From Gautieria morchelliformis (Eukaryota > Basidiomycota > Agaricomycetes > Gomphales > Gomphaceae): a stretch of DNA of 64,000 nt. The stretch's first letter is position 1; every line of letters begins with the position of its first letter. The stretch is from assembly GCA_015179125.1 (NCBI GenBank), contig WHVA01000306.1, forward strand, positions 1 through 64,000, in the 5' to 3' direction. Positions 1 through 36,400 of the stretch are shown here, piece after piece. The notes beneath the pieces are model-generated. The model did not search any database and was not told the DNA's origin. It was given only the letters and a program-made list of their open reading frames with translations. The position numbers were made by a program, and so were the translations under genes.

Positions 1-668
1 AAACTTGTGGAAGGAAACGCGTGAACCCTGACAGCCGTGCCTCGGAGATAGGAAAGGGCGTAATTGACCTTTCGTTCGTCGTCAGGAAAGGCATTGGGAC
101 GATCACGGAAGTTGAGTTGAAGCTGGACCAGAAATTGCTGGAGCTTCTTGGGGTCGGAACCGTCGAATTGATCTGGTTCATGGACCTTTGTCTTGGGGCG
201 TGGTGGTGCTTGGGCCGGGCGCTGAAGTTGTCCGGCTAGCATGGCGATGTCTTGTGCAAGATCCGGAACTGGCACGGGTGGAACTGGGTTGGTGGGAATC
301 TGGGGTGGGATTGGAGGTGGAGGACTGCCTGGGGGACCGCCGGGTGGGCCGCCATGAGGGCCACCTGGAGGGCCGCCTGGAGGTGGTCCTGGTGGAGGTG
401 GTGGTGGTGGAGCTGGGCATCGGAATGACGCTGCTGTTTGTTCGCCGCTGCTACTCGTCGAGTTTCCGTCATAGTCGGGATTGTCATCGGGATTAGCATC
501 GGGAACTTCTTCGAATCGTTGCGGAATAGCATCGGAGAGCTCATCGTCAGCACGAGAGCTGCCGGAGGGTTCCGTGTGCCTTGGTGCTGCGGATCTAAGA
601 CTGCCAAAATAAGAGAGAGCTTCGACAGCTCCTGCTCGAGCTGAAGTAGCTGTGGTACGAGGAGGCAT
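1..668 (-). CDS. Gag N-terminal part of Ty3/gypsy family A, copy 1 (runs off or breaks at the left edge)
   Basis: Read on the minus strand from the ATG at 668, one frame stays open to about position 40, giving about 210 residues. It starts MPPRTTATS, passes an acidic Ser/Asp-rich stretch and a long Pro/Gly-rich tract (about residues 95-130), and reaches the start of a retroviral-type Gag core (motif DQFDGSDPKKLQ). It is the uninterrupted counterpart of the Gag that is split in element A (20716 to 12471), so it shows the ancestral target sequence there. Homology to A stops near position 37-41 just after a Leu-Arg-Gly, so the copy is broken or rearranged there. Gag forms the cytoplasmic particle in which reverse transcription occurs. 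The identification rests on the downstream Gag core and zinc knuckle of the sister copy. Confidence 0.75.
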   Translation of the reverse strand, partial: MPPRTTATSARAGAVEALSYFGSLRSAAPRHTEPSGSSRADDELSDAIPQRFEEVPDANPDDNPDYDGNSTSSSGEQTAASFRCPAPPPPPPPGPPPGGPPGGPHGGPPGGPPGSPPPPIPPQIPTNPVPPVPVPDLAQDIAMLAGQLQRPAQAPPRPKTKVHEPDQFDGSDPKKLQQFLVQLQLNFRDRPNAFPDDERKVNYALSYLRGTAVRVHAFPSTS

Positions 669-701
669 AGTGATAGTTATCGGGTGGGAATCAGATAATA
701 C

Positions 702-1361
702 TGTTACGTATCGAGATTTCCGCTAAGTCGGAACTGGAAAGGACAGCAGCTTCAACTTATAGGTTGCACCCCCAATGAACTATCGTCCTAAGTATTTCGG
801 AAATGGGTCGGAAGGCAGAAAGTACTGAACTAGAGGTTGGTCAGGACTTGAGTCGGAACTGAGGCGGAAGGCGGAAGATGGAAGGCGGAGAGACTGAGGT
901 CTTGCTAGACTCGCTGTGCTAAGAACAGGAGATGGAGCGGAGGAAATCAAGTATCGAAGGTGATTATCTGATTGCAGAATAACAGACATACATGACAGGC
1001 TTTTATACAAAGAGCTGAGACAACAGGTAATGGGGTAGTACTAAGCAAATTCCGGGGGAAGCGGAAGTCGAGTAGACAATGTGTGGGAACTAACTAATTG
1101 GGAACAATGGGACTACAAGGGGGGTTCAGGGTAAGGTAAAACAATGGGAAAGGACAAGGGGTCGGGAAACATGTCTGACAACGAACTACAAGGGTGACCG
1201 GATAAGTGATCTTGATGAACGATGAAGCGGGTCCGGTGGGTCCAAGTAATAGAGTCGAAAGAACAAGGGAATAGAACAATGGGCGGAATGTCGGAAATAT
1301 CGGAGGGGCAGAAAGTGTTGCGGAACTGAAGGTCGGAAGTTGGAAGTGAACGGTCGTAACA
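702..1361 (-). repeat. LTR of gypsy family A, copy 1 (5' LTR, minus orientation)
   Basis: A 660-bp block starts TGTTACGTATCG and ends GTCGTAACA. It matches the LTRs at 4813-5465 and 20750-22118 along its length. It abuts the Gag leader at 701, so in the minus orientation it is the 5' LTR. It ends inside the decayed antisense gene of family C, so copy 1 inserted into that gene. The flank after 1361 is CTCCT; the partner target-site duplication would lie outside the window. Confidence 0.9.
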
Positions 1362-11290: not shown

Positions 11291-12470
11291 CTATTTTTTT
11301 GCATCCGTAGCGGGAGTCGCTTTGGATTTCTCTTCCGTCTTCGCCGCACGGCCCTTGGCCTTAGTAGCGGAAGCGGAAGCTCGGGTGCAATCGCGAGTGA
11401 CGTGACCGCCTTTGCCGCAGAAAAGGCAAAGGTTGTTGTCCATGCAACGCTGGCGTTCTGCGGGGGTTAGTTTTCCGTCCTTCCCAAGTTTGTCGGAAAG
11501 GTCCGGAGTGCTCTTCCAGGCGTTGGTGTTGGAACCAGAGGCCTGGTTGTTGCGAGGGGTGGAGTTGTTGTTCCGGTTGCCGGAGTTGGAGCCGGAACTG
11601 TTGTTGTTGTTGTTGTTTCCGGAGTTGTTGTTTCTGGAATTAGTCTTCTTCTTGTCTTTGTCAGACTTCTTGTCGGAAGACTTGTCGTTCTTGCTCTGGG
11701 CGGAAGTTTCGCAAGCGATCTCGGAATGTCTTTCCCAGTAGCGCGAATCGATGGATTGGGCTAAATTGCAAAGGTCGGTAAGGGTGGCGGGTTTTCCAAT
11801 GCGGGCAATTTCATCCTTGATCTGGGATGGCAAGCCCATGTAAAACTGGCGTCGGAGTGCGGCTTCTCCCCATTGGACTTGAGGAGCGAGCTGCTGGAAT
11901 GTGACAATATATTTAGCTATCTTATGAGTGTCTTTCATATGAAGCTTATCGAGTTCATTTTCCGCATCGGCTTCCATATCAAATTGTCCGATGCGGAGTT
12001 CAGAAACGAAGTTGTGATAATCGTCGGCCCAGTCGACAAGAGCGAACAGATCCATGAGGGCAGGTTCGAAGTAGTCGAGCGCCATGCCTCAGAGATAGGA
12101 AAGGGCGTAATTGACCCTTCATTTGTCATCGGGAAAGGCATCGGGACGATCACGGAAGTTGAGTTGAAGCTGGACCAGAAAACGCTGGAGCTTCTTGGGG
12201 TCAGAACCGTCGAATTGATCTGGTTCGCGGTTTGGTCTTGGGGCGTGGTGGTGCTTGGGCCGGGTGCTGAAGTTGTCCGGCTAGCATGGCAATGGCTTGT
12301 GCAAGGTCCAGAACTGGCACAGGTGGAACTGGGTTGGCGGGAATCTGAGGTGGGATTGGAGGTGGAGGGCCGCCTGGAGGTGGTCCTGGTGGAGGTGGTG
12401 GTGGTGGAGCTGGGCGTCGGAATGACGCTGCTGTTTGTTCGCCGCTGCTACTCGTCGAGTTTCCGTCATA
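11291..12470 (-). pseudogene. gag: Gag of element A, downstream part (nucleocapsid with CCHC knuckle)
   Basis: A clean frame from 12085 to 11291 encodes the Gag core (MALDYFEPALMD..), a Ser/Asn/Lys-rich linker, and a zinc knuckle CLFCGKGGHVTRDC near 11440, which binds RNA during packaging. Upstream, to the insertion point at 12470, the Pro-rich part can be read. Compared with copy 1 it has lost a base near 12230 and has TGA codons, including CTC-TGA-GGC where copy 1 has CTC-CGA-GGC. The first ~66 codons of this gag lie 8 kb away at 20716-20519 because of the A+T-rich insertion. Confidence 0.9.
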
Positions 12471-13117
12471 GGAGGATGTTCACATTGACAACAATGTACA
12501 TTCTTCTAGGATATATTAGATATCTTTTAAAATATCAACCCTAACTGAATTCATAGTCCATCATTTTGAGCAACTTGTATATTGTGGACATTCTAAATTG
12601 TTTTGAATGTTCTGATATTTTAAAAATATGGTTGTATGTGCTAAAGCATGGTGTGTATTCAGATAACAGAGCAATTTCAGAGAGGATGTGGATGACTATA
12701 TATTAAAAGTATATATGACGCTTGTTACATGTATGATGATAGAATGTAGAGGCAAGTGTGGACTATATGAGTATATGTTAGAAGTATATATGAAACATGT
12801 TAGATGTACAATCACAGAATATAGAAGCAAGTATGGACAATACCTGTACTATATTATTATATATGGTTGAGAGATCTGATTAGAAGGTATGTTTAAAATA
12901 ATATGCATGTATAGTACAAAGATATATAACTATTGATGTTTAGACAATAGGGTATACAACCTTTCCTGGGGGAGCAGCAGACTGTGAGAAAGAACTTTAG
13001 GGCTAGGATTAAGCATGCCTTACAGGTGCTGGCAACTGCCTCAATTTTGATATATTTTATGGAATATAGATGATCTAAGCTATATATACATATATATGAC
13101 ATTTATAAACATCCCCC
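12471..13117 (+). repeat. Left terminal direct repeat of the 8-kb element
   Basis: 647 bp from GGAGGATGTTCAC to CATTTATAAACATCCCCC. It is about 99% identical by eye to 19872-20518 and in the same orientation. Its own two ends are imperfect inverted repeats (GGAGGATGTT / GGGGGATGTT), so it could once have moved by itself. TA lies directly outside both of its ends. No ORF of note. Confidence 0.93.
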
Positions 13118-13152
13118 TAGGAAAACATTTTAAAAAGTATGAATACTATATT

Positions 13153-14156
13153 CTAAGGCTCTCCTAAAAAGAATTGAGGTTCTCCTTTTATTCCAAGATC
13201 TCTTTTTATTGTTTCAAATATTTCAGGAAACGTACTTAGTATCTTATTCACATCTACTTCTCCTTTTCTCTTAGGACCTTCATATATTGTCAATATGAAA
13301 GGGATATCTTTACCTTCTTCTTTTCTGTCTTCTTGTCTTTCTAAAGAGAATCTTACTATAGGACAGTCAAGACCTTTTATGACTCCAACTAGCTTACTGA
13401 GATAATTGGAATCGTTTTCAACATCTTTCATTCCTAATCTAGTACATTGTTCCATCATCTTTTCTTCTGTTACCTTCCATCCTACTATAGTTCTGAAGTA
13501 CATATCTAATATCCTTTTAAAGAATTGTAGGTATATCAATTTGTCATAACCAATCTTTTCAACTTATCAAGATCCTCCTTATATGTACCCCTGTAAATAT
13601 CAAAAGGTCCATATACTTGTACTATTTTTACTACCTCTACTTTTTTACCATAACTCTCACTATCCCAAGAACTTCTAGGTTTTTGGGGTTTCTGCTTATG
13701 ATTTAAATTTTTATATTTAATAAGTCTCCAATATTCCCCTATAGCAGCTATACCATATACACTTTCATAATTGGTATCTAGGAATAGTACTGTCACCTGA
13801 TTTATCAGTTGCTCCTGAGTATCCTTGAAGATCATTTCAAGTTCTTCTGTAGCTTTAACACTTCTTTTTAGTTCCACTATTAAAAATGTAGTACTATTTA
13901 TAGTGTTATTATTCTTAGTATATTTAGTAACAGTAAAATCAGGGATTAAATGTCTTACATTATCTTCTCCATCTCTATTTTCAACAGCATAAACAAATGC
14001 ATGTTGAGGAGTTATTATCATAGTATTGGCAAAGCAACCCATGAGAATTATGGTCCAAGGAGCATACCAGTAACACTCCAAGTTATTGGAATTAGTATAC
14101 TGGTCTATAGCAACTTCAATAGAGGTTCTTAGAAGAGCTTTTATATCCATCTCCAT
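13153..14156 (-). CDS. PD-(D/E)XK-type nuclease-like protein (two overlapping frames)
   Basis: The ATG at 14156 opens 206 residues. IPDFTV (Asp73) and FLIVELKRS (Glu95, Lys97) give the PD..ExK spacing of restriction-type nucleases, followed by a Gln-rich helix (QEQLINQ) and a VYGIAAIGEYWRLIKY strand pair typical of this fold. The frame ends at 13536; a second frame, overlapping it, continues (VEKIGYDKLIYLQFFKRIL..) for about 130 residues to 13153. An intron or a one-base frameshift probably links them. The gene ends 36 bp from the left terminal repeat and reads toward it. The role is inferred: DNA or RNA cleavage in transposition or defence. Whether it is active is unknown. Base and codon use are strongly A+T-biased compared with host genes. 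Confidence 0.55.
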
Positions 14157-14322
14157 CTTCTAAAAACACTCTACTCTTATCATTCAATATATTTTAAAAA
14201 TGATACATATCGTGATAACATTTTATATAGCTTATCACCTACAAAAATATAGTTGTATAAAAGGGATTTTAAAAGCTCACCAATCTGACAATTTTTTTCT
14301 TTTCTAGTATATAAATAGCTTG

Positions 14323-14526
14323 TCAATTATCTTCTACTTTTGTTAGTGCTGCAAAAGGAAGAGATACCGGCAGCAGCATTATATAAGGTGGGATTTTCAC
14401 TCTCTTATATATGATGATTGCTCTCCCCAGGAAGTCATGTACTTCTTTAACATCACCCTTGATCTCCTTCCCAGTCCTTGGATGTTTACATGTCACTTTA
14501 TCTCCTGCTGTAGGGATATATGTCAT
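14323..14526 (-). CDS. Small 68-residue protein, unrecognised
   Basis: The ATG at 14526 gives MTYIPTAGDKVTCKHPRTG and runs to a stop at 14323. The pattern of a turn, GDKV and KEIKGDVKEV resembles a small beta-barrel (SH3/KOW-like), but the length is short and this is only an impression. It lies upstream of, and on the same strand as, the nuclease-like gene, with a 166-bp gap. It may be spurious. Confidence 0.3.
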   Translation of the reverse strand: MTYIPTAGDKVTCKHPRTGKEIKGDVKEVHDFLGRAIIIYKRVKIPPYIMLLPVSLPFAALTKVEDN

Positions 14527-15126
14527 TGTCAATCCAGCTTGTATATTATATTAAACTCAGTTTGTATTCACTTTTTGTTTTGACAGGATTCAGCTCCTAC
14601 CCTCTATTAGTTATAGAATCATATGATTATTATCTACAGTCGCAGAATAGACTTGACTCTTTTTTGAATGCCTTTTGCTATATATTTCAGCTTGTAAGTA
14701 GCTAATTATGAGATCAGTCAGTGAAGAACCTAAAATTTTGGACTGACATTTCTTATAAATCGTGGTAGTCCTCTTTTCCTGAGGTGGAGGAATACGTGAT
14801 CCAACGGCAACGATATCAAACAGTAAGACACTGTCATGTTCAGTTACTGTATATGTGTTGGTGTCTGCTGATATGTGTAAGGGTTTCTTTCTTATCTAGA
14901 GTTCATTAACATACCTTTTTGCATGGCCTTGTTTGATAGTAAAGAGTATCTTAGTGCTGTAGATAATATTTGTTTAGTGCCTATTATCACAGAATGACAT
15001 AATATTATACACTAAGCGACTATGGGCATGTAGATAAATAGATAAATGCATTTCTACCAGGTTATAACTAGAACTACATAACATGCTAAATAAAAACTGA
15101 TTTCACAAAGTTGTCAATTCACATAG

Positions 15127-15780
15127 ATGAAGGAGATGATGCTTGCTATAAAATGGATTATCCGTAAGATATCTGCCTTTTTTGGTAATAAAGGCAGTAC
15201 ACAAACCTTTGAACTAGATAATTTTAACAGGTCTGTCATTGAAATAGGATCTTTGAAAATAAACACAGAAACCATCTTGTGTGATAACATATATGATTTC
15301 TTGGAAAAATGGTCAGTTTTTTCTTGTGGACAACAGCTTTTCCTTCCAGAGGACTATAGTCCTGATGGGCTGTATAGATTAATAATAAAGAGCATCTCAG
15401 ATTTTACAGTTTTGCAATGGGTGGTAAGTCCTGATTGCTTTTGTACAATGATTGGAAAACTCACATTAAATGGTAAAACAAAGTATCCTTTAGTTGTAGG
15501 ATATGGTACATGTAATGAATGTTATATATATAATACTCTAATAAGGAGTATGATGTTTGCCTTATATCCTAAATGTCAATCACAAGAAAAAGTCACAGTC
15601 TATGGTGTACTTATACTACAAGATGGAAGGATGAAGGTTTATAAAGCAAAAAATGTAGAAAGCGGTCCAACTCCGATTACTTTATATAGAACCTTAAAAA
15701 TCACAGAAGATTCATCAGAGGTCTGTGAAATTGTCGAATATATGTTTCAGTATATACTCAAACATATTACAGACCTCTGA
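15127..15780 (+). CDS. 217-aa unknown protein, possibly a degenerate nuclease fold
   Basis: A clean ORF opens MKEMMLAIKWIIRK. The middle holds SPDCFC (Pro102-Asp103), a charged turn, the hydrophobic strand YPLVVGYGT (120-128), a helix, and then VYGVLILQDGRMKVYK. This order resembles the PD-(D/E)XK core of the neighbour at 13153-14156 (PD, strand, helix, VYGI strand pair). The expected E-x-K is replaced by GYG, so if related it would be catalytically dead. The similarity is my reading, not an alignment score. Its stop lies 14 bp from the tRNA-like sequence. A+T-rich codon use matches the rest of the 8-kb element. Confidence 0.5.
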   Translation: MKEMMLAIKWIIRKISAFFGNKGSTQTFELDNFNRSVIEIGSLKINTETILCDNIYDFLEKWSVFSCGQQLFLPEDYSPDGLYRLIIKSISDFTVLQWVVSPDCFCTMIGKLTLNGKTKYPLVVGYGTCNECYIYNTLIRSMMFALYPKCQSQEKVTVYGVLILQDGRMKVYKAKNVESGPTPITLYRTLKITEDSSEVCEIVEYMFQYILKHITDL

Positions 15781-15793
15781 TAGAATTCTCTAT

Positions 15794-15864
15794 TAACCAG
15801 ACCAGGGTTCGAACCTGGGACCCCGTTAGTATATAGGGTGCTTTACCAACTAAGCTATTTGGTC
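15794..15864 (-). tRNA. tRNA-like sequence, probably degenerate (anticodon not assignable)
   Basis: Minus strand, 71 nt. Acceptor GACCAAA pairs with TCTGGTT (one G-T, one A-C). T8-A9 are present. D stem GCTT/AAGC has loop AGTTGGTA. T arm CCAGG-TTCGAAC-CCTGG is perfect and the discriminator is A. The A box (TAGCTTAGTTGG) and B box (GGTTCGAACCC) of the Pol III promoter are intact. The anticodon arm is about 2 nt short and pairs only CCC/GGG, so no anticodon is clear. No T-run terminator follows closely. It is either a pseudogene or a tRNA-derived part used by the element. Confidence 0.6.
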
Positions 15865-16378
15865 TATTACATTTTACAACTTGGTGAGGTAATCTATGAG
15901 TCATAAGATAGTGTACAAGCTTTGTTTAAAGCTTAATTTCTACAGTTTTGATATTTATCATCAAGAATCTTAATAGAAACATTGCTAAATATTATGATTT
16001 TGACTCTTCATATAGAATGACTTATATAACCAATACATTCACTTTCATGACTAGTAATTATACTTTATTCTATCTCTAACATCATAAGATCTGATATTCG
16101 TAGAAATACATTTATATATCAGTTACCATGGAATATGATGATAATTCCAGTACTTGAATTAGTATTTAGAAACAAACATGTATGATACATAATTCATCAA
16201 TCTAATGGGATTTAAATTCAACTTCCCATTTAAAGTGGAGAGTGGATTCAGATTCAATGATAATAATACCATCTTATGTCTTTATACTCTATGGGTCATT
16301 TGGAACTTCAGCTTATATGCTGTTCCAAATTTTTATATCAATGGATGGAAAAGGTTCCCGGACTCACAAATGTAGAGG

Positions 16379-18063
16379 TCACAATACCTCATCTTCTAGG
16401 ATTATTGGTGGGCACCTATCTTGAAGAATATCTAACATTGATCTCTCATTATTGGAATCTAATCTATTCTGCTTGCATATCTCATCATCAATCTCAAATA
16501 TTGATCGAGTATCGATATTTCCTTTCTCATCAAGAGTATCAAATGTTGAGATCTCAGCTAGTTTTGATCTAGTTTTACTCCTTTGAAGAGACTTATTTAC
16601 TAAACTATCCTTTGTACTATTCTTATCTTGTTGTTTTGTTAGGAGGTTTATTTGATTATTATCATTGACCTCACATGATACCAGATAATTACGTGCATAA
16701 TATGCTGTCAAAATGGATACTTTTTTTCCATCCATATATACATCCATGTCTGCTAAATCATAGTAATTACCTTCTGAATCGTGTATTCTACAACTTGGTG
16801 TTATTCTTTTGATATCTCTAGCATGATCCAATTTATCTGGTTTTGCTGTTAGCAAATTTATTTGATTATTATCATTGACCTCATACGATACTAGATCATC
16901 CTCTTCATCATATGCTATTAAAGGGGATATTTCTTCTCCATCTATAAATACATCCATGTCTGCTAACTCAAAGTAATTATCTTCTGAATTATATACCCTA
17001 CAATTTTCTGTGATATTTTTGATATCAAATTTAATGTTTCCCAAATTGATTTCTTTTTCAAGAGTATCAAATATTGAGATCTCATTGGGAGTAGATTGCT
17101 TTGGCTTCTTATCTGGTTTTGATCTAGCTTTACTCCTTTGAAGAGACTTATTTACCAAACTATCCCTTGAGATCTCAGCTAGTTTTGATCTAGTTTTACT
17201 CCTTTGAAGAGACTTATTTACTAAACTATCCTTTGCACGATTCTTATCTTGTTTTGTCAGGAGGTTTATTTGATTATTATCATTGACCTCACATGATACC
17301 AGATATTTACGTGCATAATATGCTGTTAAAATGGATACTTTTTTCCCATCCATATATACATCCATATCTGCCAACTCATAGTAATTACCTTCTGAATCAT
17401 GTATTCTACAACTTGGTGTTATTCTTTTGATATATCTAGCACGATCCAATTTATCTGGTTTTGCTGTCAGCAAATTTATTTGATTATTATCATTGACCTC
17501 ATACGATACTAGATCATCCTCTTCATCATGTGCCGTTAAAGTGGATATTTCTTCTCCATCTATAAATACATCCATGTCTGCTAACTCAAAGTAATTATCT
17601 TCTGAATTATATACCCTACAATTTTCTGTGATACTATTGATATCAAATGTAATGTTTCTACCGCTTATTTCTTCTTGAGTAAGCTGAGATTCCTTTTGAG
17701 CATGAACCATTGGTTCTGGTTTGTGGTGTTGTTTTGTCATAAAATTTATTCGATCATCTATGATATCATATGATACCAGGTCTTTCTTTTTACGGTATAC
17801 TGTAGACAACTTGCGATAAAGACATGCATATCCTCTAGACTATAGCAATTATCTTGTGAATCATAAAATATAAAACATCCACCAATCTTTCTAATTCGCA
17901 ATCCTACATGCTTATTATTTTTGATCTGCTCTCTTAATTCTATAATCTCTCTACGTTGTTCCATAGATATCTGTTTGAGATTTGATATTATCCCATCTTT
18001 TTCTTCGATCCATTCTATGATTCTGTCAATCCTTTTAGAGAGCTTGACAATCTGGGATTCCAT
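16379..18063 (-). CDS. Tandem-repeat protein with N-terminal coiled coil (two frames)
   Basis: The ATG at 18063 (MESQIVKLSKRIDRI) opens a charged coiled coil of about 45 residues. A first copy of a ~60-residue module follows (FIFYDSQDNCYSLEDMHVFI), then the frame breaks near 17815. The next frame continues with four more modules alternating two types: NITENCRVYNSEDNYFELAD.. and ITPSCRIHDSEGNYYELAD... Each is followed by an acidic stretch ending in a VNDNNQINLLT-type strand. Two two-module blocks (about 17690-17105 and 17050-16560) are nearly identical at DNA level, a tandem duplication. Lys/Arg/Ser linkers separate the blocks. The break may be an intron or a one-base shift. No known domain was recognised; an oligomeric scaffold or DNA-associated role is a guess. 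Confidence 0.5.
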
Positions 18064-18492
18064 GGCTACTAGACCCAATTTACAATTTCACAGAATCAAT
18101 TTTCAATACTGACTCATCTAATCTGGTTTTATAATTAAATTGTTAACTAGGTCCTTGTCATTGCTAGCACTGTTGTTTAAATTACATATCATCACAAAGA
18201 CTGTTATTATAATTGTGCTTGCTAACTACAAAGTTTGGTTTGATTGATTTATCTCTATCTGTTAGTGTATATGTCATCACTTATTGTGGAAGGTAATCTA
18301 GACCAGTAGTTGAGAATATAATTCCAGTAAAATTCTATATTCCCTTTATGTTGTTTATGGTTTTATTTAGAGAGTTGAATAGTGAATGCAATATAAAATC
18401 GAAATATATAAAGTCCTCATCTTATCAACGAACTCAACTATACAACACTCTTTTTTCCAACTCATAGTTGTAGCTGAGAACTTTCCTTTATA

Positions 18493-19872
18493 ATGAATGA
18501 GTCACTCCTTGAAGAATATCAAATGTTGATGAATGAACATTGGGGGTTTCTTGATGAAAAATGGCCTTTGTTGAAGCCAACTAAATTTCATCGAACAGGA
18601 CTAAAACCTGTTTCTGAAATAGATCTCATCAAAAAAAGAGTACTAGAGAAACTTGGACCAATACCAGTGTTCTTCTTCCTAGTAGTGGTATTTCCATTCA
18701 AGCACCACCCAGGTCCATATCGAAATGTAGAGAAGGGACTATTAATACTCTATCATCTGATTGAAGGTTGTACATTTGATGATATGAACAGATTTATACC
18801 TGGGAGTACTTTTCATGCGATCCATCAGAGTTTTTTTGGACATGAAAAGGACCTTAATAATGACTTAAATGACAAAGTCATTGATTTGTTGGCTCATATG
18901 TTTTCCAACATAAGGATTAGAATATTATCTGCAAAGGATAATAATAAGGAAGAACTATTCAACACAATAACTTTATTCCTTGATGGTCATGACACAAGAG
19001 GAACAGAAATAGGAAGATCATCTAAAGTACAATGGTTACATAAACACAGAAATTCTGGAATGAGAACTCAAGTAATTATTGATTTTCATGAGATGGCTTT
19101 GTTTGTTTCTGATTCATTGCCATGTAGCCACTCTGATGGAGCAATGTTCACAGAAATGAACTTAAGAGATAAGATGGATAAGGCAGATCGTATGGCTCTT
19201 GATGGAGGCTATACACTATTTGTGAAACAAGTAGTAAAGCAAGGTAGATTGAAAGACATGAATTTCTGCCATCCAATTAGGAAGCAGAAGAATGCTGAAC
19301 TATCAGATATAGAGAAGCACTACAATGAAAGATTTGGTAGTTTCAGATCAAAGATGGAAAGCTTCTTTGGAGAGTTAGGAATGACATTTAAGAAGTTAAA
19401 TAATCAGAAGCCTGTCCAAACATCGAATCCTAAGATATTCTCTTTGCAGTTTAGATTAGCATGCTTGCTGCTTAATATCAAACGGTTTGTTAAATTAGGA
19501 GAGCTCCAAGCACAACCTAATCATATGTCATGGATGGAAAGCCATTTTGACTATCCATCAATTGATACCCTCGACTTTGAGTCACTGAGAATCTCAACTC
19601 TAAAGGATATTACAAAAGATGCAAAGAAAATGTCTAAGTATCAAGCACAATTATTAGCAGGTACAGATACAAATGAATCTGACCAAGATATAGAAGATAC
19701 ATATGAAGTGAACAAAATACTAGATCATAGGACAAAAGGAAAGAGAAGAGAATACTTAGTTCAATGGAAAAACTATGAAGATCACACTTGGGTAAGGGAG
19801 GAAGATTTTGATACAAGGCAGTGCATAGAGGATTACATTAGACGTCAAAAGAAGAAGGGTAGACGCTACTAG
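18493..19872 (+). CDS. Harbinger-like DDE transposase with C-terminal chromodomain
   Basis: 459 residues from ATG 18493. The catalytic triad is visible: Asp164 in LFLDGHDTRG, Asp237 in ALDGGYTLF, Glu289 in SKMESFFGELG, the spacing and context of the DDE_Tnp_4 (PIF/Harbinger, IS5-related) family. An acidic linker (390-402) leads to a chromodomain at 404-450 with the aromatic-cage candidates Tyr404, Trp425, Tyr428 and Trp433. The enzyme would cut and join the element ends; the chromodomain could bind methylated histone tails and bias insertion. All key residues are intact in one unbroken ORF. The stop codon TAG (19870-19872) straddles the junction with the right terminal repeat, so the 3' UTR lies in that repeat. 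Chromodomains are well known on chromovirus integrases; on a Harbinger-type transposase this is unusual to my knowledge. Confidence 0.85.
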   Translation: MNESLLEEYQMLMNEHWGFLDEKWPLLKPTKFHRTGLKPVSEIDLIKKRVLEKLGPIPVFFFLVVVFPFKHHPGPYRNVEKGLLILYHLIEGCTFDDMNRFIPGSTFHAIHQSFFGHEKDLNNDLNDKVIDLLAHMFSNIRIRILSAKDNNKEELFNTITLFLDGHDTRGTEIGRSSKVQWLHKHRNSGMRTQVIIDFHEMALFVSDSLPCSHSDGAMFTEMNLRDKMDKADRMALDGGYTLFVKQVVKQGRLKDMNFCHPIRKQKNAELSDIEKHYNERFGSFRSKMESFFGELGMTFKKLNNQKPVQTSNPKIFSLQFRLACLLLNIKRFVKLGELQAQPNHMSWMESHFDYPSIDTLDFESLRISTLKDITKDAKKMSKYQAQLLAGTDTNESDQDIEDTYEVNKILDHRTKGKRREYLVQWKNYEDHTWVREEDFDTRQCIEDYIRRQKKKGRRY

Positions 19873-20518
19873 GAGGATGTTCACATTGACAACAATGTAC
19901 ATTCTTCTAGGATATATTAGATATCTTTTAAAATATCAACCCTAACCGAATTCATAGTCCATCATTTTGAGCAACTTGTATATTGTGGACATTCTAAATT
20001 GTTTTGAATGTTCTGATATTTTAAAAATATGGTTGTATGTGCTAAAGCATGGTGTGTATTCAGATAACAGAGCAATTTCAGAGAGGATGTGGATGACTAT
20101 ATATTAAAAGTATATATGACGCTTGTTACATGTATGATGATAGAATGGAGAGGCAAGTGTGGACTATATGAGTACATGTTAGAAGTATATATGAAACATG
20201 TTAGATGTACAATCACAGAATATAGAAGAAAGTATGGACAATACCTGTACTATATTATTATATATGGTTGAGAGATCTGATTAGAAGGTATGTTTAAAAT
20301 AAAATGCATTTATAGTACAAAGATATATAACTATTGATGTTTAGACAATAGGGTATACAACCTTTCCTGGGGGAGCAGCAGACTGTGAGAAAGAACTTCA
20401 GGGCTAGGATTAAGCATGCCTTACAGGTGCTGGCAACTGCCTCAATTTTGATATATTTTATGGAATATAGATGATCTAAGCTATATATACATATATATGA
20501 CATTTATAAACATCCCCC
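19872..20518 (+). repeat. Right terminal direct repeat of the 8-kb element
   Basis: 647 bp, GGAGGATGTT to CATCCCCC, same orientation and length as 12471-13117. I count about 7 substitutions (for example AACCGAATTC against AACTGAATTC) and no length change. It is followed by ATA and the resumed gag sequence. Confidence 0.93.
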
Positions 20519-20716
20519 ATAGTCGGGATTGTCGTCGGGATTAGCGTCGGGAACTTGTTCGAAGCATTGTGGAATATCATCGGAGAGCTCATCATCGGCA
20601 TGAGAGCTGCCGGAGGGTTCCGCGTGTCTTGGTGCTGTGGATCTAAGACTGCCAAAATAAGAGAGAGCTTCGACAGCTCCTGCTTGAGCTGAAGTAGCTG
20701 TGGTACGAGGAGGCAT
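20519..20716 (-). pseudogene. gag: Gag start of element A, cut off by the 8-kb insertion
   Basis: The ATG at 20716 gives MPPRTTATSAQAGAVEALSY and runs about 66 codons to the junction at 20519, matching copy 1 codon for codon with a few changes. The next codons of the gene continue at 12470. The leader between the ATG and the 5' LTR (20717-20749) should hold the primer-binding site; next to the LTR it reads GTATTATCTGATTCCC on the minus strand. I could not match that to a tRNA. Confidence 0.88.
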
Positions 20717-24830: not shown

Positions 24831-25228
24831 CACTGGAGGCATATGAAGATTTTCTGGTCTGAAAAACTGTTCAAAAAACTGTAAAGTTATTCCAATTTTT
24901 TTTAGTGTTTTTAATGTAAAAAAACTTTAACAAAATTATGTGTTTTTGTAAGAATTTGTTGAGCAAGAAAATTGTAAAAAAGTTTAAAGTTTTTTGCAGG
25001 GTTTTTTATGTCTTTTTATAAGTTTCTTTGTGAAACCACAAAGAAACCCATAAAAAACCCTGAAAAAAACTTTGAATTTTTTTACAATTTTCTTGCTCAA
25101 CAAATTCTAATAAAAACACAAAATTTATTATAGTTTTTTTTACATAAAAAACACTAAAAATATTTGGATAATTTTTACAGTTTTTTCAACAGTTTTTCAG
25201 ATAAGAAAACTTTTATATGCCTGCAGTG
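24831..25228. mobile_element. 398-bp foldback MITE with CACTG..CAGTG ends
   Basis: Almost the whole element is one long inverted repeat with its centre near 25030. The left arm CACTGGAGGCATATGAAG mirrors the right arm CATATAAAAG..GCCTGCAGTG. TGT flanks both sides (24828-24830 and 25229-25231), the 3-bp duplication typical of CACTA/EnSpm-type elements. It has no ORF, so it is non-autonomous and would depend on a transposase elsewhere. Confidence 0.82.
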
Positions 25229-25680
25229 TGTTGGCATATTTTCTGCTTTGTCAGCAGTCTTACTGCCACACCTTCTCATCACCTCGTGTGGGTGGCTTTA
25301 CCATGCGGCTGCTCCTTGTGGTGGTGTACTTAGCCATACCAGCAGCACCTAGGTGCATTACCAGCAACACAGACACCTCAGTTCTGGTCTGGAGGGGCTG
25401 GCGGCTATGTGGGGGCCGTGAGGCCCATGCTGGTATGTTGTCTTCATGAACATACTGTTCTGAGAGCAGAAGTGGCCAGATGGGAAGTGGAAGCAGAACT
25501 GGAGAGGAGGGCATCCCCTGATAAACCTTGCTAATCTATCCTAGCACAAATACTGAGCTGACAAACACACTATTCATTGCACCATCACATAAAGCATCAT
25601 AAAACAAGTATGCTGTACAGTTACACATTATAACAACAAATATTGTCACAATGTTACTACAGCAGGATATTTATTTTTAC

Positions 25681-26657
25681 AAATACCTTGAATGTGTCAT
25701 CCAGCCATCACAATGATCTGCAGTAATGGTGGCAAGGGCACTGTGAAAGAACAATAGTACAGAACCTTGGTATTTAGCATCAACCGCCTGCCGAAAGGTA
25801 TCCCCATGACGCCTGGGGTAAGATTTCAGATATGAAAAGGCTTCTTCAATTGGATTGAGGTCCAGTGAAGGCAAGTAGTATAGCCATACACCACTGTTAA
25901 AATGCTTAGCCTCCATTGAAACATAAAAGACAACAGCAAATGACTTACCGCTCCTGGCAAATTTCTGAGACTTCGGCTGCATGGTGAATAGCGGAATAGC
26001 CCATCCATTCAGACGATATGTGGTGCGACAATCAATACGGCTCTCATCGATAAACACAAGACGCTCCGGGGACTCATGACCAATTTTGAAACCAAATAGA
26101 GTGTGCAAATTTTCATTGCGCTCGGCAGTGACCTTGGACAGCTGTGGAAAGCATGAATAGACTAGAAGAGGGCAAAGCATTAGAACATACCTTTTTGCGG
26201 GTGAGACCAAGGTCTGTCATTGTGTCCCATAAGGTGCTGATTCCAACTGTTATCCCATACAGGCGCTGCATGATGGTTTGTATCTCGTCCAAGTATAGGT
26301 CAGGGAACTGCTCTGTAAGCTGAAGAAGAAACTACAGTAATATACAAAGTGAGAAAATATGATCATCTTCACTCTGTAGTGGAATTGCTTACCTCCATTC
26401 CCTCTTCTGGAGTCATAATCTTCCTTCTATTTCCCGTCTTTCCATGTCCCTGCACAACTACCTCACCAGTAGTACGCCACAATTGGAGGATGCACTCAAC
26501 AACATGTTTTGACATGTTCAGATCAAGTGCAATGTCATCGATCTTCTTCTCCCGCATGAACCGTTGGTAAATTACATGCTTCCGGAGGTCTTCAGAGTAT
26601 GTTTGACACTCCCTTTGGTGTTCAGGCAGGTAGCGAGGCATCCAGTACAAGTACAAG
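25681..26657 (-). pseudogene. Fungal DDE (DDE_3, Tc1/mariner-like) transposase gene, catalytic core deleted
   Basis: Exon 1 (26656 to about 26389) encodes an N-terminal helix-turn-helix (RKHVIYQRFM..IDDIALDLNMSKHVV). Two introns are readable: after EEGMEV (GTAAGC..TGTAG), and after GLTRKK (GTATGT..CCACAG). The last exon has RLVFIDESRID (first Asp), TTYRLNGW, and then jumps to GVWLYYLPSLDLNPIEEAF (final Glu). The usual middle segment with the second Asp (VMDNA-type) is missing between FYVSMEA and GVWLYY, so the enzyme would be inactive. The terminal inverted repeats of the element were not found. Confidence 0.8.
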
Positions 26658-27189: not shown

Positions 27190-27683
27190 AAAGGGTGTAT
27201 ACCCTATTGTCTAAACATCAATAGTTATGTATCTTTGTACTATAAATGCATATTATTTTAAACATACCTTCTAATCATATCTATCAACCATATCTAATAA
27301 TATAGTAGAGTTATTGTCCATACTTGCTTCTACATTCTGTCATTGTACATCTAACAAACTTCATATATACTTCTAACATATACTCATATGGTCCATACTT
27401 GCCTCTACATTCTATCATCATACATGTAACAAACTTCATATATACTTTTAACATGTAGCCATCTAAATCCTATATGAAATTGCTCTGTTATCTCAATATA
27501 CATTATGTTTCAGCACATACAAACATATTTTTAAAATATCAGAACATTCAAAAAATTTTAGGATATCCACAATATACAAATTGCTCAAAATGATGGACTA
27601 TGAATTCGTTTAGGGTTGGTATTTTAAAAGATGTCTAATATATCCTAGAAGAATGTACATTATTGTCAATCTGAACATCCTCC
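27190..27683 (-). repeat. Truncated single copy of the 8-kb element's terminal repeat
   Basis: The reverse complement begins GGAGGATGTTCAGATTGAC at 27683 and tracks the 647-bp repeat to about 27190, losing the final ~150 bp with the CATCCCCC end. It has more differences than the two terminal copies. TA lies directly outside the GGAGG end, as at the other copies. No transposase or cargo is next to it, so it is a solo or non-autonomous relic. Confidence 0.85.
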
Positions 27684-29040: not shown

Positions 29041-29565
29041 TGTCCTTTCAGCTTCACAAGAGGCCACCATCCCTTTTGATCTCAAGCTTTCACTCTTGCT
29101 CCCAAACTCTTGCTCTTTCTGTCAAGCTCTTGCTCTTGCTCCCTAGCTCAAGCTCTCATTCTTGTACTTGGCTGCTCTAACCATCACACTTGTACCCCAC
29201 CTTGTCCTTTTCTAATTTGTGCTCGCCCCTGTGTGAGTGCTGCTTATACTGCTCACATTCAACCCTCATCACTTTCATTATATTCCTGCTCTCGCAATGT
29301 CAATGATGTGTGTACCTAAAAAGTAGTTCTGAATGTCCTTTTTATTAGTCCTAAACAAGCTAGAAACAAGTTCTTTTTGAGCTAAAAAAACAGTGCAAAG
29401 TGGCACATTTTCACTACTAGAAATCAGTTCGTGGTCAAAGGGGCTGAGAACGCTTTGGGAGCTAAAAATCATTGCTCAAGCACTGTTTTCTAGCTGGTTT
29501 TTTACTGAAACTCAAGTTCCGTTTCATCTGAACTTGAGCCGGCGCTTCCTGCAGTGCTTACTTCT
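29041..29565. other. Intergenic stretch, no gene seen
   Basis: The first half is rich in CTCTTGCTC-type repeats (29090-29160). The rest has no recognisable ORF, RNA or element end. Confidence 0.4.
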
Positions 29566-29780
29566 CACGCAGAGAAATCATATCGAATTCTCGGATCCAG
29601 GCCAATCCAGGATCAAATCTACAGTATGCCAACTATATGGCTCGTATAGATAACCCCAATCCTGAAGCATCCAATCTCGGCCAAAGCCAGACAACGAAAG
29701 GGTGAATGTCATTCACAAATCACCACCGAATTTCCCCGCCTCAGATATCATTCCAACGGTCTGGGGTCGTGTTTAGCGAT

Positions 29781-31386
29781 TCAAACCTGAGGTAATAAAT
29801 ACGGCCAGTGTTGTTGAGATGGCGCGAACGGCTGCGTTACCGGACCGTATAAGGGTATATCATTGGGACCATAATCGGGACCATCATCGGGTACGGCTCC
29901 ACGGAGGTTAAGGAGAATGCGCTTTATCAGGACTGCGTGCAACAGTACCTGCACTCTGAATGTGATGGATAATCAACTATAGACACAAGAGTCGATTAAA
30001 TGTACGTACCCAGTGAGGATAGTGGCTGACTACTAACGAGTCAAACTCTAGATGCACCTTATGATAGTTGGCGAACTTACAAATGCCACCATTGTGACGA
30101 TATTGAATACAGAGAAGGCTGTGGATTCCGTTAGCCGTCCACGTTTAGTAACCTAGACTTAACGCACCGAGCATATATATGTAATACAACATCCCTGCCG
30201 AGAGAAATAGCTTTAAGACGTCCGCCGTCGACTGGCTGAAGAACAGATCAATTCTCACCATCCCTATATAGTGACAACAATGTTTGAGGAGCTAGTCCTA
30301 ACTGCAAACAGGTGAGGTTTTAGTGCAGATAATGGTTGCGAGTCACGCACAATGCTTTCTCCCGTGGTACATAGTCATGCCTACGATGACTACGTGAGTA
30401 TGGAAAACGTAAGATATTGATCGGAATGCCGTCAGAAACAAATTACGGCTCACCAGAATCTATGCCTGTGAATATTATGAAGTCCACAAAAATATAGCGA
30501 CCCGCTCCTTCAATTAAAAGGCTGCCTTGGCTGCCAGGCGTCGGGTCTGGAATGTCTACAAAAGGGCCTCGATAAGACTCGTGGAGAAAATCCTGAGATC
30601 AGACATGCATTTCATTTGTTCAATACCATAAATCGTGATTGAGAGAACCACGACAATTGTGGCAGCCGAGGATAAAGTAAGGCCTATGCCTAACATTTTC
30701 CGTCGCCCAAATATTACCCATGTCCTGAAGATGAGGACTACTGTGGGAGCCAGGTCAGCGTCGGAGGCCTATGAGAGATTGAGATGGTGTACATTCTCCA
30801 ATACACATGAGGCAAGCTAACAGCACTGGTGAGATGGTCAAACGGAATATCAGTAAAAGATGTTGGTCCAAAAAACTCACTTTCGCTAGCTTGCGCAGTG
30901 CCCGTACAACTTGAAGGATGGTATAGGATACCAGCATCTGTGAATAAATAATTTAGTTCATGCGAATATGTAAGTCGAAAGGGGAACAGACGGCTTCCAG
31001 ACATGACTATAGATGCCGAGAAACTTAGGTACGCCACCATGAGATATAGTACTTTGGCCACACTCCACCGCGCCGACCAGATGAAGCCAACTTCAACATC
31101 CAACGTCAAGATGTGGTCGTAAGTCTATTATAATAAATTAGTGAGTGCCAGTATTCTTCTAGGCTGTATGCGTACCAACAGCACCGCGCCTGCCACTGAC
31201 TCGGAGCCTGGTGATTAGCGCATTGACAAGGTACGACATTAAGCCACCACACCATTAAAATACTGTTGCCATGAACTTTAGCATGGACTTCAAGCTTCCG
31301 AGGGTGACGGTGTGGTGTTTACTCATATCAGGTAACACGTGCCGTTTGAGACTTGAAGCTATAAAGCTGGACAGTTCCGCATCCAT
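29781..31386 (-). CDS. DUF6533 membrane protein, tandem copy 1
   Basis: The gene starts MDAELSSFIASSL at 31386. A GTGAGT/GTAAAC-type donor context ends exon 1 after about 20 codons (here the sequence reads GATATGAGT rather than GACGTGAGT, so the donor may be lost). The DUF6533 motif DH-LTLDVEVGFIWSARWSVAKVLYLMVAYL is at about 31110-31020. Hydrophobic helices follow, then LIFRTWVIFGRRKMLG near 30700 and the tail LLHAVLIKRILLNLRG ending at a TGA at 29781. The family is multi-pass (about 7 helices) fungal membrane proteins of unknown function. It is the oldest-looking or most divergent of three neighbours in its splice donor. Several introns were not fully placed. Confidence 0.7.
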
Positions 31387-32311
31387 CGTATAAAATATAA
31401 AGACTTAGACCGTCAATGTAAGAATTCAGAACTATTGGAATGCGCAACGTTCGTGATGTTGAAACCGCACTTACGAGGTTAAATAAAAATACGACGTCAA
31501 ACATACTATTCAAGAGCTGCTTACTTTTATATCCATCGATTCTATAGTTTAGATCCGAATCGTGAGGGGCCCGTTCGACAACAATTCGTGCCAGTACTAT
31601 TGGCACGAATTGTAGTAGTAGTTGCAACCTAAGCTCGTTGTCACCGTGCTCACCACGAACCGATCAGTAAGGTTGCATTCGGTAATTTTATTCTGGTGGT
31701 GCCACTTCCAGGGCAGAGGTGATTAGTATACCTTTGCGGTTAGGCACTGACAGGGTCCATCAGTGTGGGTCAAACTCAAAGTCGTCAGCAGCGATCGGTT
31801 CTCGGTGCGTGAGCAACTCACTCGCCGGTGTGCTACGTACCAGCTAGGCGCTTATACTTTACGGCCGCAACTGCGGACCATCATTGGGGTTCTCGAGTCG
31901 GATTCAAGTATGTGTTTGCAGCTCGAGACCTAGTCCCGGTGCAGTCGAAAAAGCTGTACTTTCCAATCAGCGGCCTCTCATCGTGTATTCGCGAATTGAA
32001 TGCTTCTTGGGTCACCGGTGATGACTCATCTTTGGAGACCGGTGACGAGCCATGTACAAAAATTTTGCAATCACTGTTGTATAACGTACTTCAACCGCAG
32101 GGCGACTCGGCGAGGGCAATTGTGACTTGTCACGCAGAGAAATCGCATCGAAGTCTCGACTCCAGGCCAATCCAGGACCAAATCTACAGTATGCCAACGA
32201 TATGGCTTGTATAGATAACCCCAGTTCTGAAGCATCCAACCTCGGCCAAAGCCAGGCAACAGGGTGAAAGTCACTCACAAATCACCGCCGAATTTTTCCC
32301 CGCCTCAGATA
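31387..32311. other. Spacer between DUF6533 copies 1 and 2
   Basis: Upstream DNA of copy 1 (31387-31640) resembles that of copy 2. The block 32130-32250 resembles the downstream DNA of copies 1 and 3 (29570-29690 and 34575-34700). The middle, about 31640-32130, is unique with no convincing gene. A hairpin lies at 31582-31612. Confidence 0.5.
31582..31612. other. 12-bp-stem hairpin
   Basis: CAATTCGTGCCA and TGGCACGAATTG flank a 7-base loop GTACTAT; the pairing is perfect. It lies upstream of DUF6533 copy 1. Function unknown. Confidence 0.7.
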
Positions 32312-33967
32312 TCATTCCAACGTTCTGTGGTCATGTTTAGCGATCCAAACCTGAGGTAGTAAATAGGGCCAGTGTTGTTGGTGAGATGGCGCGAACGGCT
32401 GCGTTACCAGACCGTATAAGGGTATATCATTGGGACCATAATCGGGACCATCATCAGGTACGGCTCCACGGAGGTTGAGGAGAATGCGCTTTATCAGGAC
32501 TGCGTGCAACAGTACCTGCACACTGAATGTGATGATAATCAACGGTATAGGCACAAGAGGTAGATTAAAATGCACGTACTCGGCGAGGACCATGGCTGAC
32601 TACTAACGGGTCAGACCCTCGATGCACCTTATGAGGAGACACGAGTTGGCGAACTCACAAATGCCACCATTGCGACGATATTGAATATAGAGAAGGCTGT
32701 GAATTCCGTTAGCCGCGCCCATTTAGTAACAGAACCCAGACTTGACGCACCAAGCATGTAAATGTAATACAGCATCCCTGCCGAGAGGAATAGCTGTAAG
32801 ATGTCTGCCGTCCGGCTGGTTGAAGAACAGATCACTTCTCACCATCCCTATATAGTGTGACAACAATGTTGGAGGAGCTTGTCCTAACTGCAAACAGGTG
32901 AGGATTTCGCGAGGATAATGATTACGAGTCATGCACAATGCTTTCTACCGTGGTACATAGTCATGCCTACGATGACTACGTGAGTATGGAAACCGTAAGA
33001 TATTGATCGGAATGCCGTCAGAAACAAATTACAGCTCACCAGAATCTATGCCTGTGAATAGTACGAAGTTCACCAAAACAATGCGACCCGCTCCTTCAAT
33101 TAAAAGGCAGCCTTGGCTGCCAGGCGTCGGGTCTGGAATGTCTAGAAAAGGGCCTCGATAAGAGTCACGGAGAAAATCCTGAGATCAGACATGCATTTAA
33201 TTTGTTCGATATTATAAATCAAGATTGAGAGAACCACGACGGCTATGACAGCCCAAGATACAATAAGGCCTATGCCCAACATTTTCCGTCGCCCAAATAT
33301 TACCCATGTCCTGAAGATGAGGACTACTGTGGGAACCAGGTCAGCGTCAGAGGCCTACGAGAGATTGAGATAGTGTACATTCTCCAACACACATAAGGCA
33401 AGTTACCAGCACTGGTGAGATGGTCAAACGGAATATCAGTAAAAAATGGACGCAAAAAAACTCACTGTCGCAACTAGTTTGCAGAGTGCTCGTACAACTT
33501 GAAGGAAGTGGGCTACCAGCAGCTGTGCACAAGCAATTTAGTTCATGAGAAAGTGTAAGTCGAGAGTGGAACAGACAGTTTCCAAATATGAATATAGATG
33601 CCGAGAAACCTAGGTACGCCACCATGAAATACAGTACTTTGGCCACACTCCACCGCGCCGACCAGATGAGGCCAACTTCAATATTCAACGTCAACACGTG
33701 GTCGTAAATCTATTATTAAAATTTCGTGAGTCCAAGTATTCTAGACGGTACGTATATCGTACCAACAGCACCGCGCCTGCCACTGACTCGGAGTCTGGTA
33801 TTTAGCGCACTGACAAGGTACGACATTAGGCAGACACACTTGTAAAATACTGTCCCCATGAACTTTAGCATGGCATCAAGCTGCAGAGGGTGGTGGTTTT
33901 TACTCACGTTAGGTAGTAGGTTCTGTTTGAGATTTGAAGCTATAAAGCTGGACAGTTCTGCATCCAT
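32312..33967 (-). CDS. DUF6533 membrane protein, tandem copy 2 (extended C terminus)
   Basis: The start MDAELSSFIASNL is at 33967 and the DUF6533 segment LTLNIEVGLIWSARWSVAKV is at about 33690. Membrane helices follow, with WARLTEFTAFSIFNIVAMVAFVSS near 32700 and VLLHAVLIKRILLNLRG near 32470. At the position where copies 1 and 3 have TGA after LPQV, this copy reads TGG and continues 14 residues (WIAKHDHRTLE) to a stop at 32312. Exon 1 ends AACGTGAGT. It is the same family and strand as copies 1 and 3, so the cluster arose by tandem duplication of a ~2-kb unit. Confidence 0.72.
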
Positions 33968-34059
33968 GGTATAAAATATAAAGACTTAGAGCGTCAAGGT
34001 AAGAATTCAGAACTATTGGAATGCCCGAAGTCCGTGATGTTCAAACCGCACTCACGAGG

Positions 34060-34570
34060 TTAAATAGAATACACGTAGATTCTTGAGATTAATCACATCA
34101 GCGTTACACTGTTTGAATCATTACACGAAACACTGGTTATCTTTGCAAAGGCCGGAATCGTACATAGATGATTGATCCATTGCCATGCATGATTCTATGG
34201 CATGGATTGATTGATGTTTACCTAGAAGACATAATATTAATAGCAGCGTGCATGTTATGCTTCTGTTTGTTCATCGAGAAGCTGAGATCAAACATACCGT
34301 CTAGCTAGTAGTGGGCTCTTAATACAGACCACACGCCAAGCAAATTCCCAGTCAGTTAGTAGCTAGGTTCTTTTGATACACATCACGCTGGCACCGTTGG
34401 TTGAAATCTGCCCTGTAGGGCCCATTCATGACAAGTGGGAGATATGGATGGATTTCATGACGTACTCTGAGCCACCCTGCGTTCCGGAAGTGAATCGAAA
34501 GACCGGTAACCAGACTATTCTATATAAATAGATTTGTTATATTTGGAAGGCTGTACGTAAACCACACGAG
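34060..34570. other. Spacer between DUF6533 copies 2 and 3
   Basis: Unique sequence with no recognisable gene or element. Conserved downstream sequence of copy 3 begins at about 34575 (GAGAAATCGCATCGAATTC). Confidence 0.4.
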
Positions 34571-34789
34571 GGCAATCAGAGAAATCGCATCGAATTCTCG
34601 GATGATCCAGGCCAATCCAGGACCAAATCTACAGTATGCCAACTATATGGCTTGTATAGATAACCCCAATTCTGAAGCATCCAATCTCGGCCACAGCCAG
34701 ACAACAGGGTGAAAGTCATTCGCACATCACCGCCGCATTTTTCCCCGCCTCAGATATCATTCCAGCGGTCTGGGGTCATGTTTAACGAG

Positions 34790-36400
34790 TCAGACCTGAG
34801 GTAAATACGGCCAGTGTTGTTGTTGAGATGGCGTGGACGGCACCATTACCGGGCTGCATAAGGGTATATCATCGGGACCATAACCGGGACCATCATCGGG
34901 TACGGCTCCACTGCGGAGGTTAAGGAGAATGCGCTTGATCAGGACTGCGTGCAACAGTGTCTGCATTCTGAATGTGGTGATAACCAACGCTGTAGGCAGA
35001 AGAGGTAGATTAAAATGCACGTACTCGGTGAGGACCATGGCTGACTACTAACGGGTCAGACCCTCGATGCACCTTATGAGGAGACACTAGTTGGCGAACT
35101 CACAAAGGCCACCATTGCGACGATATTGAAGATAGAGAAGGCTGTGAATTCGGTTAGCCGCGCCCATTGAGTAACGGAACCTGGACTTAAACGCACTAAG
35201 CATGTAAATGTAATACAGCATCCCTGCCGGGAGGAATAGCCATAAGATGTCTGCCGTTGGCTGGTTGAAGAACTGATCACTTCTCACCATCCCTATATAG
35301 TGTGACAACGATGTTCGACGAGCATATCCGGACTGCAAACCGGTGAGGATTTCGCGAGGATAATGAGTACGAGTCACGCACAATGCTTCCTCGCGTGGTA
35401 CATAGTCATGCCTAGGATGACTAAATGAAAACTGTCAGATATTGACCGGAATGCCATCAAAAAAATTTAGAGCTCACCAGAATCTATGCCCGTGAGTATT
35501 ACGAAGTCCACAAAAGCAATGCGACCTGCTCCTTTAATTAAAAGGCAGCGTTGGGTGCCAGGCGTCGGGTCTGAAATGTCTACAAAGGGGCCTCGATAAG
35601 ACTCATGGAGAAAATCCTGAGATCAGACATGCATTTAATTTTTTCGATACTATAAATCATGATCGAGAGAACCACGACGGCTATGACAGCCGAGGATACA
35701 ATAAGGCTTATGCCTAACGTTTTCCGTCGCCCGAATATTACCCATGTCCTGAAGATGAGGATTACTAGTGTGGGAGCCAGGTCAGCATCCGGAGGCCTAT
35801 GAGACTGAGATAGTGTACATTCTCCAACACACATAAGGCAAGCTAACAGCACTGGTGAAGATGGTCAAACGGAATATCAGTAAAATGGATGCAAAACACT
35901 CACTTTCGTTAGCTTGCAGATTGATCGTACAAGTTGAAGGAAGGTAAGGTTTAGCAGCATCTGTGCACAAGTAACTTAATTCATGAGAAAATGTAAGCCG
36001 AGAGTGGAACAGACAGCTTCCAAAAATGACTATAGACACCGAGAAACCCAGGTACGCCACCATGAGATACAGTACTTTGGCCACACTCCACTGCGCCGAC
36101 CACATGAAGCCAACTTCAACGTCCAATGTCAACATGTGGTCGTAAACCTATTATTAACATTTCGTGAGTGCCAGTATCCTTCTAGGCTCTATGTATATCG
36201 TACCAACAGCACTGCGCCTGCCACTGACTCGGAGCCTGTTGTTTAGCACATTGACAAGGTAAAACATTAAGCCGACGCACTGTTAAAATACTGTTGCCCA
36301 TGAGCTTTAGCATGGGGGTCACGGTGCGGTGTTTACTCACGTCAGGTAATACGTGCTGTTTCAGACTTGACACTATGAAGCTGGACATGTCCGCATCCAT
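34790..36400 (-). CDS. DUF6533 membrane protein, tandem copy 3
   Basis: Exon 1 starts at 36400 (MDADMSSFIVSSLKQHVLPD) and ends at a perfect GACGTGAGT donor at about 36341. Exon 2 opens after AATAATAG with YDHMLTLDVEVGFMWSAQW, the DUF6533 signature, and continues through VAYLGFSVSIVIFG (helix) to SYLCTDA. Later exons hold LIFRTWVIFGRRKTLGIS (about 35740), WARLTEFTAFSIFNIVAM (about 35140) and LLHAVLIKRILLNLRSGAVP, stopping at 34790 after LPQV. It is probably the best preserved of the three. An integral membrane location is inferred from the hydrophobic segments; function is unknown for the family. Confidence 0.75.

Follow-up and report, generated by a model that had tools for sequence, protein, structure and literature searches.

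The window analysed here is a stretch of 64,000 nt from Gautieria morchelliformis (Gomphales, Agaricomycetes; WHVA01000306.1, forward strand), and our subject is the inserted element of about 8 kb at positions 12471-20518, probably a DNA transposon that can move either as a whole or by one of its end repeats. It has the layout R-interior-R, where R is a long terminal direct repeat of 647 bp: the left R (12471-13117, plus strand) and the right R (19872-20518, plus strand) align without gaps and with seven differences (98.9% identity). Each R begins and finishes with short inverted ends of its own, GGAGGATGTT and AACATCCCCC, and the same sequences form the outer ends of the element, flanked on either side by ATA (12468-12470 and 20519-20521). 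A first-pass annotation of this DNA had reported the 647-bp repeats, the inverted outer termini and the ATA duplication, all of which we recover at these exact coordinates. The longest stop-to-stop frames within R are 67-69 codons. Two 75-bp tandem units lie inside each R (12692-12849 and 20093-20250); many R of other units hold one. A third R, without an interior, is found at 27190-27683 on the minus strand; it is truncated to 494 bp and is 91.5% identical.

The joined flanks of the element align across the junction with a sister retroelement copy at window positions 34-869 (87% identity, with gaps). At the insertion point (464-480, plus strand) the sister copy reads CCGTCATAGTCGGG, with a single ATA (471-473) and no element, which bears out the empty site proposed earlier. 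The empty site and the ATA duplication demonstrate that the 8-kb unit transposes as a whole. The element was also said to be A+T-rich unlike its host; G+C is 31-35% inside the element, near 50% in the left flank and 35-60% across the window outside the element.

The interior encodes a DDE_Tnp_4 transposase with a C-terminal chromodomain (18493-19872, plus strand; catalytic residues D165-D238-E290), and it is hence not passive cargo. Pfam matches are to DDE_Tnp_4 (E 4e-12), to the chromodomain (E 2.3e-9) and weakly to DDE_Tnp_1, and a weak match to an NCBIfam IS5 model lies far below its cut-off. D238 and E290 are invariant in 26 aligned transposase sequences, D165 nearly so, and a full-length frame free of stops is present at seven places among the matches listed, the window included. 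The stop codon (19870-19872) overlaps the right R by a single base, its last. The earlier description of a Harbinger-like (IS5/PHIS-type) element, with long terminal direct repeats that possess inverted ends of their own, is thus upheld. Direct repeats at both ends, solo repeats and a dimer junction with one common repeat (see below) are also what might be expected of a long terminal repeat (LTR) retrotransposon or a derivative of one. We assign this reading almost no probability: no match to reverse transcriptase or gag was obtained in the eight interior frames scanned, the enzyme is of the DDE_Tnp_4 type, and the repeat ends are GGAGGATGTT...AACATCCCCC.

The genome searched comprises 122 Mb in 1113 contigs, here labelled C with a number; the window is part of C345 (139470 bp). 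A host protein encoded at 38002-38706 is 100% identical to a G. morchelliformis protein over 88% of the query, and the other named hits that could be placed come from mushroom-forming fungi. In five further units (on C701, C771, C448, C284 and C245) both ends carry an R, and the two are oriented alike; the right R of C245 was read in part. Comparison with these units bears on the remaining genes of the interior. The nuclease-like gene (13153-14156, minus strand) consists of two overlapping frames, 13536-14156 and 13153-13563, which are probably joined by an intron, the splice being predicted. In the first frame, P72-D73, E95-x-K97 and Q114 are invariant in three copies, and the ratio of nonsynonymous to synonymous substitution (dN/dS) is 0.26-0.41. 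The PD...ExK pattern is the motif of PD-(D/E)XK nucleases, and by this motif the product is a plausible but putative nuclease of that kind. The nuclease-like gene of the first-pass annotation thus gains a motif, but there is no convincing match in Pfam or NCBIfam, and a search with 13539-14153 of the first frame gave 50 candidates, none of them a homologue at E <= 0.001. Structural models of this frame and of the 217-aa protein described below have a mean predicted local distance difference test score (pLDDT) of 41 and gave no Foldseek match at E <= 0.001. In C771 and C284, about 420 bp of other sequence beside the left R stands in place of this gene.

Farther into the interior are a 75-codon frame (14323-14550, minus strand), present in all five other units at 46-99% identity, and a 94-codon frame (14611-14895, minus strand), which is frame-shifted in other copies. 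A 217-aa protein (15127-15780, plus strand) is open in five of the six units compared and has a stop in C284; its dN/dS between sub-clades, 0.8-0.9, is weak evidence that it may be under constraint. The repeat-protein gene (16379-18087, minus strand), another feature noticed in the first pass, comprises an open frame of 486 codons that is internally repetitive at the DNA level (16379-17839) and an N-terminal part (17758-18087) that appears coiled-coil-like by eye. The tRNA-like sequence, also noted before, is called by ARAGORN at 15794-15864 (minus strand) with no anticodon named, and its B-box arm looks intact by eye. It occurs in all six family-1 units compared, the other five being 95-98% identical to the window, and it is better conserved than the adjoining gene, which is 80-88% alike in C448 and C771; it was not found in C279, a copy of the second family introduced below. 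It may serve as a promoter or mark a module border. No Myb match at E <= 1 was obtained in the eight interior frames, a scan in which exons may be missed.

A search with the window R scored 40 of 508 candidates, all at least 95% identical. Thirty R loci were read with 1.5 kb on each side; these are the best matches to the window R and not a random sample. Six touch an interior, and the other 24 are solo, with no interior within 1.5 kb. Junction patterns searched genome-wide gave 25 R-to-interior and 32 interior-to-R places, compared with none for a reversed-pattern control, and R was attached at all eight further boundaries read (six left, two right). On eight contigs besides C202, a left junction lies 4-9 kb from a right one; C497 and C204 have theirs on opposite strands and are thus rearranged copies. 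C202 itself shows interior-R-interior, the centre of a dimer whose two units have one R in common, and we conclude that either recombination or a circular form is at work as well. Five R searches, each scoring 40 of 506-508 candidates, yielded 122 distinct R places. At 93 of these no interior match lies within 500 bp; four of the 93 touch a junction, leaving 89, a count in which decayed interiors would pass as absent. The further copies, solo repeats and 3-bp duplications by which the first-pass annotation had suggested following up its reading were, like the empty site, all found.

A second family has the same plan. C279 encodes a transposase 50% identical to that of the window, with a 553-bp repeat, R2, directly to the left of its interior. 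R2 starts GGCGGATGCTCACA and ends ATTATCCTCC; its sequence is unrelated to R except that 12 of the first 14 bases are identical. C695 and C248 have R2 at both ends in the same orientation. The two loci share the same right flank and are perhaps two haplotypes, or else a segment that has been duplicated; because of the shared flank we count them as one insertion. C279 retains the left R2 only, and at C538 the final 95 bases of an R2 remain on the far side of a deletion. The interior of either family opens with TAG and closes with CTA where it meets the repeat. DNA matching interior-2 is present on about 11 contigs, and further transposases 48-51% identical are found at C179:115127, C175 and C451:70751. 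A search with R2 returned 2902 first-look candidates, of which 40 were scored, each match being at least 94% identical, plus four weaker or shorter pieces. Among ten solo R2 read at their ends, five have exact 3-bp duplications and five do not. Between the two families the dN/dS of the transposase is 0.15, with dS saturated. The nuclease-like module (window 13118-14156 compared with C279) is 86% identical where the transposases are 50% identical, and since its synonymous distance of 0.42 is far below the 2.5 of the transposases, this module has probably passed between the two families.

The first-pass annotation suggested a composite made by two small elements around cargo, or a new architecture, and one may likewise imagine that two miniature elements inserted by chance to the left and right of a Harbinger-like element already in place, the three now being taken for a single element. 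R does stand alone in many places, mates (the two R of one unit) are not mutually closest in four of the eight units compared, and some mates differ in their number of 75-bp units. Identical junctions at 25 and 32 places, a second family that shares this plan and the TAG...CTA ends of the interior despite an unrelated R2, the single ATA duplication and empty site of the window unit as a whole, and the presence of R at all six further left borders read make such an origin very improbable; together with the transposase encoded inside, the junctions and the second family also lead us to abandon the composite as first proposed.

Exact 3-bp duplications flank 16 of the 24 solo R, compared with 21 of 552 mismatched flank pairs. 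Of these 16, two read TWA, two ANT, none CWG and two TNA, and 15 have A or T as the middle base. Among the five units whose outer ends were fully read, exact duplications are present in two, the window (ATA) and C284 (AAG). Regarding the similarity of mates, those of the window unit (98.9%) and of C448 (99.0%) are mutually closest among the 50 R compared. The C284 mates are 99.3% alike, which is a tie for the left R, and the right R has a closer R elsewhere. At 93-95%, the mates of C701 and those of C771 are unlike; one of them has two 75-bp units and the other has one. The closest R among the matches listed is the mate for C260, and is not the mate for C133 or C497. This pattern fits recent whole-unit insertions or mate conversion, plus later exchange of R between units.

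We propose, with a probability of about 75%, that these elements represent a lineage of IS5/PIF-Harbinger-type (PHIS) DNA transposons with an R-interior-R structure, moving either the whole unit or one R. In both families the repeat is a direct repeat of 0.55-0.65 kb with short inverted ends of its own. Both R and R2 open with a common motif, are found singly with duplications and flank a transposase gene, and so the simplest reading is that the transposase of the interior recognises and acts on the R ends. Pairing of the outermost ends would move the whole 8-kb unit; if instead the two ends of a single R are paired, that R would travel by itself, as a non-autonomous miniature element. Some solo R and the dimer would result from recombination among R copies, which would also sometimes homogenise mates. 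More speculatively, the nuclease-like protein might cut DNA and thereby promote recombination between R copies, by analogy with the role proposed for KolobokP, an animal transposon compared below.

It is from the numbers and duplications of solo R that we infer movement of R alone. The same transposon might instead yield solo R solely through recombination of a unit's own two R, much as solo LTRs arise, with R never transposing by itself. Solo R do closely resemble the R of units (e.g., the solo R of C460 and the right R of C497 are 99% identical), the C202 dimer shows that an R exchange or circle route occurs, and an exact-pattern search for interior joined directly to interior, as R excision might leave it, found no match in the genome. 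Against recombination as the only source, solo R outnumber units, with 89 of the 122 listed R places having neither an interior match nor a junction, and 2902 first-look R2 candidates (40 scored) compare with interior-2 on about 11 contigs. As recombination products, these candidates would require equally many former units. That solo R2 candidates so outnumber interior-2 is the strongest reason to think that R moves alone, and we regard recombination as the sole source as unlikely, though clearly less so than a chance composite.

Several findings weigh against our proposal that R moves both within the unit and alone. A solo R with a duplication is also produced by recombination between mates, which is why the movement of R alone is put forward as an inference. 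No interior-interior junction was matched by the search just mentioned, and R is still present at all six further left boundaries. The flanks of C448 (GAG/AAG) and C771 (TAG/TAA) match at two of three bases, and those of C701 (TAA/ATC) are mismatched. Mates are clearly closest in three of the eight units, nearly so in one and not in four. Finally, C771 and C284 lack the nuclease-like gene, which is therefore not required by every copy.

The transposase has 123 protein relatives at E <= 0.001, the nearest among the matches listed spanning 56-66% identity and the closest being 66% identical; no relative was found in one viral-contig scan or in phage records, and a PHROGs search gave nothing useful. 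Among the 120 relatives listed, all 29 with a visible species name belong to what we take to be Mortierella- or Mucor-type fungi. No Gautieria record is among the listed relatives, though the host carries the gene. Transposons are often masked in annotated mushroom genomes. We considered a horizontal origin, given these relatives and the A+T-rich element, and do not claim one, because of this masking and because Gautieria itself is missing from the relatives.

Elsewhere in the window, a segment of 2.4-2.6 kb occurs in three tandem copies that are 60-97% alike (29551-36500). An inverted repeat at 24831-25228, with 185-bp arms 85% complementary and a 28-bp spacer, is another miniature element or a hairpin, and 25680-26216 holds the remnant of a different transposase, with a weak DDE_3 match below the cut-off.

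The closest parallel to the Gautieria units is KolobokP. As given in the parts of Kojima and Bao (2022; PMC9587614) drawn on here, KolobokP encodes a DDD/E transposase and a nuclease in an interior bounded by long direct repeats of about 660 or 450 bp, a "long terminal direct repeat" plan in which the repeats have short inverted ends of their own; solo repeats with duplications and units sharing a repeat are described, the elements occur in seven animal phyla, the nuclease is of the His-Me finger type, and the authors called the plan unlike that of any other DNA transposon. The statement of the first-pass annotation that no described family has this set consequently needs amending, since on this account KolobokP has the same plan in another superfamily. 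The Gautieria units likewise place an interior between long direct repeats with inverted ends of their own (647/571 and 553 bp), and share with KolobokP solo repeats (24 of 30 read) and a multimer, though the latter is a single dimer junction (C202). Unlike KolobokP, which belongs to the Kolobok superfamily, their transposase is DDE_Tnp_4/IS5-like by Pfam and NCBIfam profiles; the eight interior frames give no His-Me finger match and contain a PD...ExK motif instead. Extra genes, the tRNA-like sequence, a fungal rather than an animal host, and 3-bp duplications of no fixed sequence set them further apart from KolobokP as it is described in those parts.

We suggest, tentatively and at somewhat less than even odds, that unrelated DDE superfamilies (Kolobok in animals, IS5/Harbinger-type in fungi) have separately evolved ends that are miniature elements mobile by themselves, acquired unrelated nucleases and become able to rebuild themselves through recombination with solo repeats elsewhere in the genome. 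If this is true, long-terminal-direct-repeat transposons are a repeatedly evolved life form that carries its own miniature inverted-repeat transposable elements as ends. The occurrence of the same plan in an unrelated lineage and another kingdom shows that it is more than one lineage's quirk, and calls for a common reason. It raises the questions of how direct-repeat ends are kept up, what their great length is for and which part the companion gene plays. Very abundant miniature elements might also have a simple origin on this view, since R2, with its 2902 first-look candidates (40 scored), is the end repeat of a few-copy unit.

Like PIF/Harbinger and PHIS elements as described in the parts of Han et al. 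(2015; PMC4482050) and of the fungal TET transposon paper (PMC12730594) used here, the Gautieria units have a DDE_Tnp_4-type transposase, inverted ends starting with GG and short miniature relatives, and the transposase can be aligned with the PHIS/IS5 catalytic region (profile matches and conserved catalytic residues). The 3-bp duplications (exact at 16 of 24 solo R; ATA in the window, AAG in C284) are those of most PHIS groups in these descriptions. Their sequence is TWA in only two of the 16, unlike PIF/Harbinger proper, and also differs from Pangu (ANT, two of 16), NuwaI (CWG, none) and NuwaII (TNA, two). The Myb/SANT partner reported in those parts for PIF/Harbinger and Nuwa has no match in the Gautieria frames scanned, and long direct repeats are a departure from PHIS as described there, "direct repeat" occurring 0 times in the main text of PMC4482050.

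Direct repeats and solo repeats recall LTR retrotransposons, from which the units differ in that the frames scanned matched neither reverse transcriptase nor gag. In bacterial composite transposons, two copies of a potentially self-mobile unit bracket other genes. The Gautieria units do the same with a possibly self-mobile R; unlike the bacterial elements, R has no frame longer than 69 codons, and it is the bracketed part that encodes the transposase. The bacterial composites are also discussed in the paper on KolobokP (PMC9587614). Among the literature matches listed, KolobokP is the sole other element with this layout, Repbase and subscription papers lying outside the scope of that search. 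The Gautieria element is not a member of KolobokP; it is the plan known from KolobokP, here in an unrelated transposon lineage and in another kingdom.

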